In this document: positions 44,168 to 51,531 of the stretch, piece by piece
Layout: every line of letters begins with the position of its first letter
Numbering within the stretch: position 1 is the stretch's first letter
Assembly (NCBI GenBank): GCA_035944135.1
Contig: DASZBM010000001.1
Location: forward strand, 496,001-560,000
Reading direction: 5' to 3'
Length of the DNA: 64,000 nt
Origin: Acidobacteriaceae bacterium
GTDB taxonomy: Bacteria > Acidobacteriota > Terriglobia > Terriglobales > Acidobacteriaceae
Program-made: the position numbers and the translations under genes
The notes under the pieces: model-generated
What the model was told of the DNA's origin: nothing
The model's input: the letters and a program-made list of their open reading frames with translations, nothing else
Database searches by the model: none

Positions 44168-44266
44168 TTGCACGTAAAGTCTTTAGATCCAAGACTTTGC
44201 ACATAAAGTCCAGACCTAAGTCCAATCTTCTTAATACTTTGCGCAAAAACAGGGGGAGGGGTACCC
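44168..44266 (-). repeat. GGGT-C-tract / TTGCGCAA element, copy 2, with AAAGTC direct repeats
   Basis: On the minus strand, beginning in the tyrA stop codon, the order is GGGTACCCCTCCCCC, a 5-nt spacer and TTGCGCAA (44239-44246). Further from the gene are two near-identical words, TTGCACATAAAGTC (44197-44210) and TTGCACGTAAAGTC (44168-44181), about 29 bp apart. The first part matches copy 1 at 39836-39865. The whole stretch 44083-44265 has no gene. Confidence 0.6.
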
Positions 44267-45129
44267 TACCCCTTCTCCCGAAACCGATTCGCCGTTCGGA
44301 ACTCGTCGCGCAGCGCGGGCGTGCGCAGGTTCTCGCGCACATGCTGCAACCGCTGCTCTAGTGCGGCGATGGCACGCGCGATCGGCTCGGTGTTGGTGAG
44401 GGCTACATCGCGCCACATGCTGTACGGGCTCGCGCCGAGCCGCGTGGTCTCGCGCAGCGCCCGGCCACCGATCGCCTGAACCGCAGCCATTCCCTCCGGA
44501 TCACCGGCGAAGGTCTCCTCGAGAAGCGCGGCCAGGGCGGTGGAGAGCATCTGCGGCAAGTGGCTGACCCACGCGCACACCTCGTCGTGCCGCGCGGCAT
44601 CCATCTCCATAACGCGCGCTCCGAACCGCCCCACGAGCGCAATCCACTGGCGCTCGATCTCGGACCGCTGATCATCGACAGGAGTGAAGAGCCACGCCGC
44701 CCCGCGGAACAGCTCAGGCTCGGCCAGCGCGGCTCCGCCCGCCTCTTTTCCCGCCATGGGGTGCCCCGGCAAAAATCTCGCCCGCCCCGGCTGGTTGAAG
44801 AGACTCCGCGCGCGACGAACAACCTCCAGCTTCGTTGAGCCGACGTCGGTGACGAGCTGCGCCTCGCCGAGTACCGGTGCCAGGCGCTCCATCCAGTCGA
44901 GGATTGGCAGCACCGGCGTAGCCAGGACAACTATGTCGGCGACATCCGGCTTCAGGACAGATTCACGGTTGTCGAGGGCGCGGTCGATCGCGCCGATGCG
45001 CAGAGCCGTCTGGAGCTCAGTCGCGGCCGCATCCCAGCCGAGCACCTCGCCGGAGAAGTCGTCGAGCGATTTGAGGGCGAGGCCGATGGAGGCTCCGATC
45101 AGGCCCGTGCCGATAATCAGAACCTTCAC
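44266..45129 (-). CDS. tyrA: prephenate dehydrogenase
   Basis: A 287-residue enzyme: VKVLIIGTGLIGASIGLALK is the NAD-binding loop, with DIVVLATPVLPILDWMERLAP, LVTDVGSTK and RFLPGHPMAGKEAGG, all typical of TyrA. It oxidises prephenate to 4-hydroxyphenylpyruvate for tyrosine. Start is GTG 45129, overlapping the proA stop by 4 bp (GTGA), so translation is probably coupled. It ends the trpB-to-tyrA operon. No ACT domain is present at the C-terminus, so feedback control would have to lie elsewhere. Confidence 0.93.
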   Translation of the reverse strand: MKVLIIGTGLIGASIGLALKSLDDFSGEVLGWDAAATELQTALRIGAIDRALDNRESVLKPDVADIVVLATPVLPILDWMERLAPVLGEAQLVTDVGSTKLEVVRRARSLFNQPGRARFLPGHPMAGKEAGGAALAEPELFRGAAWLFTPVDDQRSEIERQWIALVGRFGARVMEMDAARHDEVCAWVSHLPQMLSTALAALLEETFAGDPEGMAAVQAIGGRALRETTRLGASPYSMWRDVALTNTEPIARAIAALEQRLQHVRENLRTPALRDEFRTANRFREKG

Positions 45130-46475
45130 GACTTGGCCTCGCGGCGGTGCGTGAAGGAGCGGGCATCCGGCCCGCGGTAGTCTCCGGCGATGTGGCCGTG
45201 GCCGCGCAGAACGTACTTGTAGGTGGTCAGGCCGTCGAGACCGACGGGGCCGCGGGCGTGCAGCTTGCTGGTGCTGATGCCCACCTCGGCGCCAAAGCCG
45301 TAGCGGAAGCCGTCGGCGAAGCGCGTGGAAGCGTTGTGAAAGACGCCGGCGGCGTCCACCTCGCGGAGAAATCTTTCTGCGGCATCGGGATCTTCCGTGA
45401 GGATCGATTCCGTGTGCGAAGAGCCGTGGGCGTGGATGTGATCGATCGCGGCATCGAGCGAATCGACGATGCCGATCGCGAGCTCGGGTACGCCGTACTC
45501 GCAGTGCCACGTGGTGACCGGTTGCACGTCGTTACTGATGGATCGCACCTGCTCATCGCCGTAAACCACAACGTTGCGATCACGCAAACGGTTCAACAAC
45601 CTCGGAAGAAACTGATCTTTGATGTCGCGATGGACGAGAACGGTTTCGACTGCGTTGCAGGCTGCTGGGTAGTCGAACTTGGCGTCGTCGATCACGCGCA
45701 GAGCGAGCTCCTGGTCGGCGGCGCTGTCGACATAGATGTGGCAGATGCCCTCGGAGTGGCCGAGGACGGGAATCCGCGTGTTCGCCTGCACGTACTCGAC
45801 GAGCGCCTTTGACCCGCGCGGGATCACCATGTCGACGAGGTCGTGCATCGCGAGGAGATCGTTGACCTCGTCGCGCCCGAGCACGAGCGAGATTGCATTT
45901 TCGGGGACTGCTTCGGTTGCCAGAGCGCTGCGCAGCACGCGCACGATGGCTTTTGCGGTGTGCTCTACCTCACGGCCGGGCTTAAGAATGACGGCGTTGC
46001 CGGATTTGATGGCGAGCGAGGAGATTTGGGTTACGGCATCCGGACGAGCTTCGAAGATCACTGCAAGCACGCCAAGCGGAACGGAAATCTTCTCGAGGTG
46101 CAGCCCGCTCTTCGCCATTTCGCGCGCTGAAGAGACATAGGGATCGGCGTCATCGAGTTCGATGGCGTCCAGCTTGCGATTGAGCGGATCCGGCAGTGCG
46201 GCGACCGAGCGAACCTGCACGGTCATCTCGTCGAGTTTGGCTTCCGTGAGCTTGAGCCGGGAGAGTGTGCTTTCGGGCAGCGCGTCGTCTGCACTTAGAG
46301 CGGAGGCACGCTGCATGTCCTCAGCGTTCGCGGCAAAGAGCTCCGAGGCCGATTGTTCGAGCGCAGAGGCCATCGCTTCGAGCATGCGATTGCGCTTCGC
46401 TTCATCGAGCGATGCGAGCGAACGAGAGGCACGCCTGGCTGATTCTGCGATCTCGCGTACGCTCGCGGAACTCAT
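45126..46475 (-). CDS. proA: gamma-glutamyl phosphate reductase
   Basis: A 449-residue NADPH enzyme giving glutamate-5-semialdehyde for proline. Motifs: PLGVLAVIFEARPDAVTQISSLAIKSGNAVILKPGREVEHT; VIPRGSKALVEYVQANTRIPVLGHSEGICHIYVD; and DYPAACNAVETVLVH with the catalytic Cys. ATG 46475 overlaps the proB stop by 4 bp (ATGA). Length is slightly above the E. coli 417 residues because of an Ala/Ser-rich N-terminus. Confidence 0.95.
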   Translation of the reverse strand: MSSASVREIAESARRASRSLASLDEAKRNRMLEAMASALEQSASELFAANAEDMQRASALSADDALPESTLSRLKLTEAKLDEMTVQVRSVAALPDPLNRKLDAIELDDADPYVSSAREMAKSGLHLEKISVPLGVLAVIFEARPDAVTQISSLAIKSGNAVILKPGREVEHTAKAIVRVLRSALATEAVPENAISLVLGRDEVNDLLAMHDLVDMVIPRGSKALVEYVQANTRIPVLGHSEGICHIYVDSAADQELALRVIDDAKFDYPAACNAVETVLVHRDIKDQFLPRLLNRLRDRNVVVYGDEQVRSISNDVQPVTTWHCEYGVPELAIGIVDSLDAAIDHIHAHGSSHTESILTEDPDAAERFLREVDAAGVFHNASTRFADGFRYGFGAEVGISTSKLHARGPVGLDGLTTYKYVLRGHGHIAGDYRGPDARSFTHRREAKS

Positions 46476-47341
46476 CGCGTGACCCCAGCGACCTGATGAG
46501 TGGATGCGAAGCGCGTGCCCACCTCCTCGCCGTCGACGATGCGCTCGAGCACTGCGGGCGTGCGGCCATTGGCGATGACGACCTGTTTCCCGGCGTCGAG
46601 TGCAATGCGCGCGGATTCGAGCTTGGAGAGCATGCCTCCGCGCCCGCGACCGTTGCCGCCGTGCGCGAGCTCGAGCACGCGTGCGTCGATCTGCGAGACC
46701 GAAGGGATGATCGTTGCGCCAGTTTCTGCAGGGTTGCGGTCGTAGAGGCCGTCGACGTCCGACAGAAGAACAAGCAGATCGGCGTCGATGTGCGTGAGCA
46801 ACAGCGCAGAGAGCTTGTCGTTGTCGCCGAAGAGGCGGCCTTGTGTGCCGTTGGTCCGTGGTTCGCCGACGTGTTCGCCCTGCTCGTCGTTGACGTGAGG
46901 AGGAACTAGCGGACGATCGAGCTCCATCGTCGAGACGGTATCGTTCTCGTTCACGATGGGGATGACGCCGAGTGCGAGGAGTGAATGCAGTGTGGCGCGA
47001 AGGTTCGCGTGACGGACAGGATCGCGGAAGTCGTCTTCCGTGAGGAGCACCTGCGCGATGCGGCAACCGAGACGGTCGAATGCGTCGTCGTAGAGAGCCA
47101 TCAAGCGTGATTGGCCGATGGCAGCGCATGCCTGAATTTGTTCAAGCGCCTTGGGCCGTTCGGCAAGTCCGAGACGTTCTGCGCCGAGCCCGATAGCGCC
47201 CGAGCTGACGACGAGCACGTCGATGCCGCGGTTGCGGAGTGCGGCGATCTGCTCCACGAGCCCGCAGAGCAGTCCCAGCGCGACCTTACCGTCAGGACGC
47301 ATGATGACGTTCGTCCCGAGTTTGACGACGATGCGCCGCAT
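46472..47341 (-). CDS. proB: glutamate 5-kinase, short form without PUA domain
   Basis: A 289-residue amino-acid kinase: [63 protein letters not shown] and [21 protein letters not shown] are the ProB signatures. It phosphorylates glutamate in the first step of proline synthesis. E. coli ProB has about 367 residues with a C-terminal PUA domain; here the frame ends after the kinase fold. ATG 47341 has GGGAG 7 nt upstream. It sits 12 bp after aroF. Confidence 0.94.
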
Positions 47342-47353
47342 GCGCGTGCTCCC

Positions 47354-48397
47354 TTACGCGTGGGCCGCGGCGACTGCCGGAGCGATGCTGCGATCGACGA
47401 CGGGAGCGAGTCTGCGGAGACGCTCGACGAGCTCGGTGAGTTGGGCCGGGAAGAGCGACTGCGCGCCGTCCGACATCGCCTTGTCCGGGTTCGGATGCAT
47501 CTCCATCAGCAGCCCGTCAGCGCCTGCCGCGACGCAGGCAAGAGCGAGCGCGGGCACAAGGTCGCGCTTGCCGACACCGTGCGATGGATCGCCGAGCACC
47601 GGAAGGTGCGTGAGCTTCTTGAGCACGGGGATGGCGGAGACGTCCATCGTGTTGCGCGTGTAGGTCTCGAAGGTGCGGATGCCGCGCTCGCAAAGCATAA
47701 GGTCGTAGTTGCCGCCGGAGAGAATGTACTCGGCGGAGAGCAGAACCTCTTCGATGGTGGCGGAGATGCCGCGCTTGAGCAGGCAGGGCTTGCGCACGTG
47801 GCCGAGCTCACGGAGCAGGTTGAAGTTCTGCATGTTGCGCGCGCCGATCTGGAAGCAGTCGATATACGGCAGCATGACTTCTATCTGCGAGATCTCCATG
47901 ACCTCAGTGATGACGAGGAGGCCGTATTCGTCGGCGGCCTCGCGCATGATCTTCAGACCTTCGACGCCCATGCCCTGGAAGCTATAGGGCGAGCTGCGCG
48001 GCTTGAATGCGCCGCCGCGAAGGAACTGCGCGCCCGCAGCAGCAACCTGCTTGGCGCTGAGGCGAATCTGATCACGGCTCTCCACCGAGCACGGGCCGGC
48101 CATGATGACGACCTCTTCGCCGCCAACGACAACGCCATTGGGGAAGCGCACGCGCGTGCCTTCCGGGCGGAAGCCGCGGCCCGCGAGCTTGTAGGGCGAG
48201 GAGATGCGGTAGGCCTGATGCACGCCGGGCAACACCTGGAACTCGGTGACCTCAAAGTGCGCGGGTGTGCCGACACCGGCCAAAATCGTTTGCGTCTCGC
48301 CGGTAGTGCGGTGGACGTTGAAACCCAACTCCACCATGCGCTCGATTACGTGCTGAATCTGTTCGTCCGTGGCTCGGTCCTGCATTGCGACGATCAT
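47354..48397 (-). CDS. aroF: 3-deoxy-7-phosphoheptulonate synthase (AroF/type I-beta, with N-terminal ferredoxin-like domain)
   Basis: A 347-residue enzyme. Residues 1-70 form the small regulatory ferredoxin-like domain of I-beta DAHP synthases ([25 protein letters not shown]). The barrel shows [47 protein letters not shown] and [13 protein letters not shown]. It catalyses the first step of the shikimate pathway. ATG 48397 is preceded by an in-frame GTG and by AAGGA. It lies between the chorismate mutase gene and proB in the operon. Confidence 0.94.
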
Positions 48398-48472
48398 CAC
48401 TGGATTCCTTCCCGCGCCGTCCGCATGACGGCGCTCTCTTGCAAATGTGTGCGCGAGGCGCGCGAGATGTGG

Positions 48473-48778
48473 CTAGCTTTTGCTGCCGGAGACTTGCTGG
48501 TGTGAGGCTGGGATGCCATGATCGGGCCGCTGCAGCGAACGCATGATGTCCATGATGCGTTCGTAGATGTCCTGCACCTGCTCAGGAGCGAGCGGGCCCG
48601 GGCTGGCGTTGCGGGCGTGCTCGATGACCTGGCGCTCGCGCTGCGGCTCGTAGATGGCTGCGCCGTCCTTGCGCTTGATCTCGCCGATGGCGATGGCGCA
48701 GGCGGCTCTTTCATTGAGCAGCTTAACGATCTGCTCATCCAATTCGTCGATTTTCTTGCGCCAGTCGGCGATGTCCAT
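48473..48778 (-). CDS. chorismate mutase, AroQ class
   Basis: A 101-residue all-helical protein: WRKKIDELDEQIVKLLNERAACAIAIGEIKRKDG is the AroQ first helix with its catalytic Arg and Lys, and IYEPQRERQVIEHARNASPGPLAPEQVQDIYERIMDIMRSLQ the later helices. It converts chorismate to prephenate, the substrate of TyrA encoded at the end of the same operon. ATG 48778 with GAGG upstream. Here it is a stand-alone enzyme, not fused to prephenate dehydratase or DAHP synthase. Confidence 0.92.
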   Translation of the reverse strand: MDIADWRKKIDELDEQIVKLLNERAACAIAIGEIKRKDGAAIYEPQRERQVIEHARNASPGPLAPEQVQDIYERIMDIMRSLQRPDHGIPASHQQVSGSKS

Positions 48779-48821: not shown

Positions 48822-49630
48822 TCATGCGTGCACCTCGCGGGCGATCTCGTTGGCGTTGTTGTGCGTGGCGTTATCGTTTCCGCGGAGAGAGCGGACGAAA
48901 TCGCCGACGGCTTGCGCGGCTTCAGCTGCTGGAGTTTTTTCGACGAGGCCGACGATGGCGCTTCCGATCACGGCTGCGTCAGCGAAGGCGCTGACCGAGC
49001 GAACATGATCGGCGTTCGAGATTCCGAAGCCGAGTGCGATCGGAAGATCCGTGAACTGTTTCAGGCGGCGGACGAGCGTTTCGGCGTCCGCGGCGAGCTC
49101 CGTCTGCGTGCCGGTGATGCCGACGCGCGAGATGGCGTAGACGAAGCCGCGCGAGTGCTCGGCGATCGCGCGGAGACGATCGTCGGGCGAGGTGGGTGCG
49201 GCGAGGAAGACGGGCGCGAGATCGTTGGCGCGCATGACGTCGAGGTACTCGGCGGCTTCTTCGACGATCATGTCGGTGAGGAGGACGCCGTCGGCGCCGT
49301 GCGCCTTCGCGGCTTTGGCGAACTCGGCCATACCCATGCGGATGACGGGATTGAGATAGCTGAAAAGGATGATGCCGGCTTGCGGGCGCAGCTTGCGGAT
49401 GTCGAGGCAGGTTTCGAGGACGTCGGCGAGACGCGTGCCTCGGGCGACGGCGCGTTCGCTGGCCCGCTGAATCACGGGGCCGTCGGCGAGCGGATCGCTG
49501 AAGGGAACGCCGAGCTCGATGACGTCGGCGCCCGCGTCGATGGCGGCGATGGCCATGTCGCGCGTCGTGGCGAGGTCGGGGTCGCCCGCGGTGAGGTAGA
49601 TGACGAGGCCGGGTTTGCGGTCGAAACGGA

Positions 49631-49634
<4 letters not shown>
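48822..49634 (-). CDS. trpA: tryptophan synthase alpha chain
   Basis: A 270-residue TIM-barrel protein: [38 protein letters not shown] (catalytic Glu) and [13 protein letters not shown] are diagnostic. It releases indole from indole-3-glycerol phosphate and channels it to TrpB. Start GTG 49634 overlaps the trpB stop (GTGA). No other trp genes (trpE, D, C, F) are in the window. Confidence 0.96.
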
Positions 49635-50848
<1,214 letters not shown>

Positions 50849-50878
50849 GTGATGCTCGATCCTCGTTAGCTGGGTCGT

Positions 50879-50999
50879 AAAAACGAAAGCCGCGACTCGT
50901 ATTGAGTTCGCGGCTCGGGGCTTTTTGATGCAGTCTGCTGAGTCTCTTTACTTCAGCAGAAGTCAGTCCGCCGCGGCCGCTACTGTCCACCAGTAGCGG
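50879..50999 (-). promoter_or_regulatory. transcription attenuator of the trpB-tyrA operon
   Basis: Three hairpins follow on the minus strand. (1) CCGCTACTG/CAGTAGCGG, perfect 9 bp, at 50977-50999, covers the leader's Trp codons. (2) TCTGCTGA/TCAGCAGA at 50934-50960. (3) AGCCGCGA/TCGCGGCT with an inner CTC/GAG at 50888-50915, followed by TTCGTTTTT, is a rho-independent terminator. The segment at 50970-50975 can pair with 50909-50914 (six G-C pairs), which would break the terminator. A ribosome at the leader's stop codon would cover that segment, while one stalled on Trp would leave it free. This is inferred by inspection, not by folding. Confidence 0.8.
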
Positions 51000-51037
51000 T
51001 ACGGAAAAGCAAAGAACGCGATGGACGACAGAGACAT
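50963..51037 (-). CDS. trpL: aromatic-amino-acid leader peptide of the trp operon
   Basis: A 24-codon frame in the 5' leader of trpB. It opens MSLSSIA, then reads FFAFP, YRYWW and TVAAAAD before a TGA. Seven of 24 residues are aromatic: Phe at 8, 9 and 11, Tyr at 13 and 15, Trp at 16 and 17. Tandem Trp codons before a terminator are the mark of trp attenuation; the added Phe and Tyr codons match an operon that also makes chorismate, prephenate and tyrosine. The start is ATG with AAGG only 2 nt away, a weak point. A -35/-10-like pair (TTGCGC, 17 nt, TACCGT) lies just upstream but would leave almost no 5' UTR. Confidence 0.78.
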   Translation of the reverse strand: MSLSSIAFFAFPYRYWWTVAAAAD

Positions 51038-51213
51038 CGCCTTTACGGTACACCCGGGCTTCGCATCGCGCAAGGGTTGCCCCAAGAATTCTTTTTTTGA
51101 GTGCATCCGGCGCGCACGCGAGGGGCATCGCATTAGAGGGCCGCAGATACGAAAGTGGGCTTGAAACAAGAGATTTTGCGGAGCGATTCCTTCAGCTTTT
51201 GAGGAGAAAAACA

Positions 51214-51531
51214 ATGAAGAAGTTTATGGGTCAGTTGGTAATCGGATCGATGTTTCTGCTGCCGGTCGGCATGTCGGCGCAGCATAGCGACCAGTACTAT
51301 CACGCCAAGCACGTGCAGGAAGAGCATGACGCGCACCATCACACCAAAGCGAAGATCGTCGGCGGATCAGCGGTGGGCGGAGCGGTAGTCGGCGGCCTGA
51401 TGGGCGGACCGAAGGGCGCAGTGCTTGGCGCTGGTGTAGGCGCGGGCGGCGGCCTGGTTGCGAACCACGTCCGCAAGCAGCACGACATCCACAAGCGCGA
51501 GCGCTGCGAGGATGAGGGCGGCTGCCGCTAA
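51214..51531 (+). CDS. small exported glycine-zipper protein
   Basis: A 105-residue protein: signal peptide (MKKFMGQLVIGSMFLLPVGMSAQ), a His-rich stretch (HAKHVQEEHDAHHHTK), then a glycine zipper (IVGGSAVGGAVVGGLMGGPKGAVLGAGVGAGGGLVANHV) and a charged Cys-containing tail. Similar proteins are seen in Acidobacteria; function unknown. ATG 51214 has GAGGAG 7 nt upstream. It is divergent from the trp leader, with 176 bp between the starts. Confidence 0.8.
   Translation: MKKFMGQLVIGSMFLLPVGMSAQHSDQYYHAKHVQEEHDAHHHTKAKIVGGSAVGGAVVGGLMGGPKGAVLGAGVGAGGGLVANHVRKQHDIHKRERCEDEGGCR

Follow-up and report, generated by a model that had tools for sequence, protein, structure and literature searches.

The trpL and pheL leaders of E. 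coli are single-amino-acid leaders, each with its own Shine-Dalgarno (SD) sequence. The element described here, upstream of trpB in an Acidobacteriaceae bacterium, resembles them in combining a short leader open reading frame (ORF) carrying codons for product amino acids with protector, antiterminator and terminator arms. It differs in that Phe, Tyr and Trp codons share one predicted stall window and in that the ORF is predicted to be nearly leaderless.

Passages of a review describe the C. glutamicum AroR leader, with a Phe-Tyr-Phe sequence before the DAHP synthase (DAHPS) gene aroF, and state that Phe limitation matters for this leader and Tyr limitation does not (PMC11802643). The leaders that precede DAHPS-class genes in our set also have mixed Phe/Tyr codons (18/18). 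However, the AroR passages name no Trp, the response they report is to Phe only and the organism belongs to another phylum. The C. glutamicum ilvBNC operon has a leader, IlvL (MTIIRLVVVTARRLP), in which Ile, Val and Leu codons occur together, and the transcription start is reported to lie 1 nt from the start codon (PMC11857589). This leader is similar in serving a branched pathway with several amino acids and in being nearly leaderless, but the pathway is that of the branched-chain rather than the aromatic amino acids. In Sinorhizobium meliloti, the trpL leader transcript is reported to start at the ATG (PMC7298713); this leader differs from ours in having Trp codons and in its location before trpE(G).

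Among the titles, abstract openings and passages covered by our literature search, which included few subscription papers, we found no leader combining Phe, Tyr and Trp codons and no assigned leader-peptide attenuator in Acidobacteriota. Within that scope, leaders with several inputs are already known for the branched-chain pathway (ilvBNC), and the nearest in kind are AroR and the ilvBNC leader. Rfam release 15 returned two chance-level matches in positions 50600-51400 (E 3.6 and 4.6) and none at E up to 0.05 for five related loci (L062, L096, L165, L169 and L170), and membership in an Rfam family was rejected on these grounds. The element is best described as a variant of the classical ribosome-mediated attenuator and as one of a family in Acidobacteriota without an Rfam match.

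The leader and operon at the trpB locus

The window is the whole stretch of DNA that was analyzed (64,000 nucleotides). The features of the locus are given below; codons are numbered relative to a conserved Arg codon (0).

51045..51073, minus strand: putative promoter, with a -35-like TTGCGC (51073-51068), a 17-nt spacer and an extended -10 TG-TACCGT (hexamer 51050-51045)
50963..51037, minus strand: leader peptide ORF MSLSSIAFFAFPYRYWWTVAAAAD, 24 codons, ATG at 51037, TGA ending at 50963
50987..51007, minus strand: control codons F(-3) to W(+3), TTT CCG TAC CGC TAC TGG TGG, from stall folding
50977..50999, minus strand: protector hairpin 1:2, arm 1 at 50999-50991 and arm 2 at 50985-50977, from covariation
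50904..50982, minus strand: antiterminator 2:3, predicted by constrained folding
50934..50960, minus strand: spacer hairpin TCTGCTGA/TCAGCAGA directly after the leader stop codon, from sequence and minimum free energy (MFE)
50879..50916, minus strand: intrinsic terminator 3:4 with T run, hairpin at 50916-50887 and TCGTTTTT at 50886-50879
49631..50848, minus strand: trpB, first structural gene (NCBIfam TIGR00263, 637 bits)
48822..49634, minus strand: trpA, overlapping trpB by 4 bp (TIGR00262, 258 bits)
48473..48778, minus strand: chorismate mutase, CM_P2 (TIGR01807, 79 bits)
47354..48400, minus strand: DAHP synthase (NF006421, 454 bits)
44266..47341, minus strand: proB, proA and prephenate dehydrogenase, tyrA (NCBIfam)

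A sequence-only reading had described a 24-codon leader with FFAF, YRY and WW, and the ORF is present exactly at 51037-50963 on the minus strand. Seven of its 24 codons specify aromatic residues, which has a probability of about 0.001 from composition alone. The hairpin that the same reading had placed over the Trp codons is the 9-bp protector CCGCTACTG/CAGTAGCGG (50999-50977), which spans the Tyr-Arg-Tyr-Trp codons and has a folding energy of -15.7 kcal/mol on its own. The reading had also proposed a GC segment capable of pairing with the 5' arm of the terminator; arm 2 can form such a duplex, computed at -20.4 kcal/mol. In the predicted antiterminator, arm 2 and a GC-rich extension (about 50982-50968) pair with the terminator 5' arm (about 50920-50904). 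The intrinsic terminator (50916-50879) indeed separates the leader from the first gene; its hairpin (50916-50887) has an energy of -19.5 kcal/mol, and the T run ends at 50879, 30 nt short of the trpB ATG (50848). Folding of the minus strand, which had been suggested as a check, gave a leader region matched in stability by 1/200 dinucleotide shuffles (z -3.7).

A strict consensus scan of the region listed no promoter or terminator at the leader, and the assignment of both elements therefore rests on sequence and conservation. The MFE structure of the window copy has, in addition, an outer helix (GUCGUCC-AUCGCG with CGCGG-CGGAC) that encloses the protector hairpin within 50963-51037. The hairpin next to the stop codon (CTCTGA...TTCAGAG in some) recurs by eye in relatives such as L071 and L074 and is possibly a pause or spacer element between leader and terminator.

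In the leaders collected from relatives (see below), a -10-like hexamer (TA...T) ends 4-12 nt upstream of the leader ATG in 98/109 cases, most commonly at 10 nt, and is preceded by TG in 68/102; the motif is permissive and these counts are given without a shuffle control. An SD-like 4-mer is present in 13/111 leaders. The recurrent hexamer suggests, indirectly, that the transcript starts upstream of the leader ORF and not downstream of 51037, where a start would have spoken against an attenuator. The ORF is predicted to be nearly leaderless, a trait also described for the S. meliloti trpL and C. glutamicum ilvBNC leaders.

Judging from gene spacing alone, proB, proA and tyrA are probably co-transcribed as the rest of the trpB operon. 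In the window, proB and proA lie between the DAHP synthase gene and tyrA (44266-47341). The gene next after DAHPS is proB in 12 loci of the same genus (such as L101, L105 and L120) and tyrA in loci of other genera (such as L084, L123 and L137).

A family of leaders with conserved aromatic codons

Of 150 genomes sampled from the family, 133 yielded a TrpB match. Among the best 30 trpB loci, 12 had a matching leader upstream of trpB, 10 of them canonical; RYG replaces RYW in L007 and L008. A trpF motif was present within 350 nt upstream of trpB at 0/12 leader loci versus 14/15 leaderless loci, with 3 of the 30 loci that could not be anchored. At three leader loci (L002, L008 and L009), the trpF motif lies 827-1002 nt upstream of trpB. 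This split suggests that the leader goes with a trpB that no longer directly follows trpF. A leader at every trpB locus was rejected, as 14 of the 15 anchored leaderless loci keep trpF beside trpB.

A covariance model built from 10 leaders (R1; E up to 0.1) matched 235/398 family genomes and 44/79 genera, which are upper bounds because the weak matches were partly inspected and several were false. A second model from 77 sequences (R2; E up to 0.01) matched 53 genomes among 396 of the phylum. All of the 17 R2-matched genomes outside the family were checked by eye, yielding eight real leaders and nine plain terminators. Four matches inside the family (L174, L175, L189 and L190) were rejected as plain terminators as well. 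Leaders from other families of the phylum have alternating Phe/Tyr runs such as FYFYFYF and YFYFYYFY (L165-L167 and L170). The three RFYFYFYF leaders (L165-L167) have a pheA match 17-18 nt downstream and DAHP synthase at about 0.9 kb, and L170 (YFYFYYFY) has DAHP synthase 62 nt downstream. In L164, L168, L169 and L172, DAHP synthase lies at 0.86-1.05 kb with one other gene in between.

A search of genome contigs with the core DNA pattern returned 37 stretches, 35 of them titled Acidobacteria or their genera (Granulicella, Terriglobus, Edaphobacter, Silvibacterium and Bryocella). The remaining titles were one 'bacterium' and one Verrucomicrobia. The latter (L217, Verrucomicrobia bacterium Tous-C9LFEB) carries the leader, and its assembly label is probably wrong.

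We tabulated 111 loci chosen among the stronger or second R1 matches, which are not a random sample. With a query set of aromatic genes and proBA only, the nearest matched downstream gene was trpB in 67 loci, shikimate kinase (aroK) in 22, DAHP synthase, chorismate mutase or pheA (the DAHPS class) in 20 and none in two. Hence, an aromatic-pathway gene lies downstream in 109/111 tabulated loci. In a small number of loci, 250-1160 nt separate the leader from the downstream match, leaving room for an unmatched small first gene. In relatives, shikimate kinase and DAHP synthase operons have a predicted leader of this design as well.

In the genome that contains the window, the DAHP synthase of the operon is the only one detected by searches for type I and type II enzymes. 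The type I search returned one further place (32% identity, internal stop), which we read as a probable KDO8P-synthase relative, and the type II search found none. The R2 model gave one strong match in this genome (the window leader), a reverse-strand match to itself and four weak matches (L184-L187) that were rejected as leaders on inspection. There was no R2 match at aroK, which lies behind an ORF labeled by eye as sigma-factor-like, and the 500 nt upstream of trpE contained no small ORF encoding two or more Trp residues.

For codon analysis, we aligned 105 leaders (66 trpB, 21 aroK and 18 DAHPS class) on the conserved Arg codon. This set leaves out L116 (masked bases), L078 (no in-frame start), and L118 and L131, for which the gene context is missing. 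Two DAHPS-class leaders in which R-Y-x was not matched (L094 and L098, identified by elimination) are also excluded. The leader frame and its Phe, Tyr and Trp codons, whose loss among relatives would have spoken against an attenuator, were found again in the alignment. The conserved core consists of F(-3) in 92 leaders, F or Y(-1) in 94, Y(+1) in 100 and W(+2) in 91, counts that are mildly circular for the 9/105 leaders re-anchored partly by aromatic content. Among 99 distinct peptides, the aromatic fraction is 0.60 at -3..+3, 0.30 at -9..-4 and 0.03 at +4..+9. Phe, Tyr and Trp all occur within -3..+3 in 56/66 trpB, 21/21 aroK and 9/18 DAHPS-class leaders, and Phe and Tyr in 58/66, 21/21 and 18/18, respectively. 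Ten of the 66 trpB leaders lack Phe, Tyr or Trp in the core, two of which (L007 and L008) lack Trp. The F(-3) codon is TTT in 90/92 leaders (51007-51005 in the window) and F(+3) of the DAHPS-class leaders is TTT in 12/14, while nine genes of the window use TTC over TTT by about 4:1 (124 versus 32).

W(+2) is kept in 64/66 trpB, 18/21 aroK and 9/18 DAHPS-class leaders. Trp is rarer in the DAHPS class (Fisher p 7e-7, a value that is not a true probability for related sequences). The tandem Trp of the sequence-only reading stands for the window copy and fails for the family, in which W(+3) is present in 2/66 trpB leaders. A tandem-Trp reading of the trpL type was rejected for this reason, and the conserved candidate Trp signal is the single codon at +2. 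The Terriglobus-like trpB leaders L007, L008 and L188 (FRYGATPAA) have lost Trp(+2), with a reshaped protector hairpin and the terminator kept; we read them as a putative natural case of loss of the Trp input.

Helix covariation and modeled ribosome stalls

In the 77 sequences, the two helices are paired in 95.6% of cells. Double changes occur in 10/19 pairs (73 cells, versus 16.4 in shuffles, with 0/500 shuffles as high and 3-22 cells in slid controls), although the alignment was fitted to the structure and the counts lean toward it. The protector contributes double changes in 4/9 pairs, with 94.4% of its cells paired, and the terminator in 6/10 pairs. In the first 10 sequences alone, covariation was weak (one pair). 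Thus, protector 1:2 is supported by covariation, and antiterminator 2:3 is predicted by constrained folding alone.

We modeled stalled ribosomes with each codon in turn in the A site, the RNA free from 12 nt on and the transcript ending just before arm 4. P(2:3), the computed probability of pairing between arms 2 and 3, is an equilibrium measure that leaves out kinetics. Class-mean P(2:3) was 0.65-0.72 at -3..+1, 0.56-0.57 at +2 and 0.38-0.44 at +3, and fell to 0 at +10 and at the stop codon. Without a ribosome, the class means were 0.29-0.35, with the protector at 0.56-0.63. The antiterminator is therefore favored at the control codons and not at the stop codon, by calculation only. The upstream edge was soft, with class-mean P(2:3) of 0.44-0.66 at -9..-4. 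The class-mean protector was 0.29-0.56 at these positions, 0.18-0.27 at -3 and no higher than 0.05 from codon -2 onward. For example, the trpB class had P(2:3) of 0.48-0.57 and a protector of 0.44-0.50 at -9..-4, with the protector decreasing to 0.27 at -3 and 0.03 at -2. The modeled stall window thus has a sharp 3' edge and a soft 5' edge, where only the protector drops clearly. Ribosome offsets of 10 or 14 moved the 3' edge by about one codon (trpB class, before re-anchoring).

In the window copy, P(2:3) was 0.46 at F(-3), 0.65 at P(-2), 0.66 at Y(-1), 0.65 at R(0), 0.54 at Y(+1) and 0.46 at both W(+2) and W(+3), compared to 0.00 without a ribosome and at the stop codon. Constrained folds contained the antiterminator for stalls at F11, Y13, Y15, W16 and W17. 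The protector was still at 0.54 in the F(-3) stall, and a ribosome stalled at W(+2) already encroaches on arm 2. Upstream stalls (-10..-4) gave P(2:3) of 0.45-0.46 with the protector at 0.86-1.00, and the non-aromatic +4 and +5 stalls gave 0.38-0.42. With F(-3) and W(+2) at only 0.46 and upstream stalls similar, the case for three inputs rests more on the family than on the window copy. As a control, a related measure on E. coli trpL (a sequence 100% identical to E. coli records) was high at W10, W11 and R12 and near zero at the stop codon. It was also high a few codons before the Trp codons, the same upstream permissiveness. The stall pattern agrees with the behavior described for trpL (PMC1183508).

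Proposed amino acid inputs and what they would imply

The short ORF with codons for the operon end products (105 leaders), whose translation is predicted, and the alternative pairings computed for each stall site lead us to propose that the element is probably a ribosome-mediated transcription attenuator with several amino acid inputs (Phe, Tyr and Trp), each of which is predicted to act alone. Transcription would begin no more than a few nucleotides from the leader ATG, and a ribosome would translate the leader close behind RNA polymerase. When charged tRNA is plentiful, this ribosome would reach the stop codon, leaving arm 2 unable to hold arm 3, so that the 3:4 terminator would form and RNA polymerase would halt ahead of trpB. 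If Phe-, Tyr- or Trp-tRNA were scarce, the ribosome would stall with F(-3), Y(-1), Y(+1) or W(+2) in the A site and mask arm 1 (the Tyr-Arg-Tyr-Trp codons). Arm 2 would then be free to pair with arm 3, allowing read-through into trpBA-chorismate mutase-DAHPS-proBA-tyrA. An OR-type sensor of the three aromatics fits an operon that carries the only detected DAHP synthase together with branch genes to Trp and to prephenate and Tyr. Furthermore, as aroK and trpE of this genome are without such a leader, a shortage of any aromatic amino acid should open the operon.

The conservation of the aromatic codons could have other causes. That they are by-products of a conserved terminator and upstream hairpin, with no sensing by the peptide, is the least credible of these. 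Arm 1 does include the Arg codon and Y(+1), together with the last base of codon -1 and part of W(+2), and weak model matches are often plain terminators (9/17 outside the family; L174, L175, L189 and L190). Yet F(-3), F(-5)/F(-6) and the F(+3) of DAHPS-class leaders are enriched outside the drawn helix, the reading frame runs open from an ATG close to the promoter and the downstream gene is aromatic in 109/111 tabulated loci. We also regard as very improbable, if slightly less so, a nascent-chain arrest peptide that senses a free aromatic amino acid, comparable to TnaC, with the RNA switch downstream of the arrest. The core motif F-x-[FY]-R-Y-W is short and strongly conserved, frequently with Ala-Ala after it, as would suit an arrest peptide. 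However, Gly or Cys replaces the Arg in L068, L073 and L077, Phe and Tyr interchange at -1, and in other families the leaders show mixed runs of Phe and Tyr (FYFYFYF, YFYFYYFY) and no such motif, as expected of control codons.

An attenuator that in practice answers to one or two of the amino acids, such as Tyr/Phe or just Trp, and in which the remaining aromatic codons have little or no effect, is unlikely but deserves more weight than either of these. AroR, reported in the review passages to respond to Phe only, is a precedent for it (PMC11802643) and indicates that aromatic codons need not all be inputs. In the window copy, P(-2), Y(-1), R(0) and Y(+1) are the best-placed codons, with F(-3) and W(+2) borderline at 0.46. 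Nevertheless, the helix does not include position -3, where 92/105 leaders have Phe, and W(+2) follows the gene class, being nearly constant in trpB (64/66) and frequent in aroK (18/21) leaders but present in half (9/18) of the DAHPS class. These two patterns look like input-specific selection and favor the attenuator with Phe, Tyr and Trp inputs.

A broader proposal, for and against which we see about equal grounds, extends this attenuator to an Acidobacteriota regulon of near-leaderless aromatic attenuators whose inputs are tuned per gene by codon swaps in one stall window. Leaders of DAHP synthase and pheA would take Phe and Tyr as inputs, joined in some genera by Trp, and those of trpB and shikimate kinase would take Phe, Tyr and Trp. 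The window copy would work as a genuine OR gate with three inputs, governing the only DAHP synthase detected in the genome. If true, the proposal would explain control of the shikimate pathway in a large soil phylum. It would also offer about a hundred natural variants, with inputs gained or lost at fixed positions, as a direct test of the stall positions that count.
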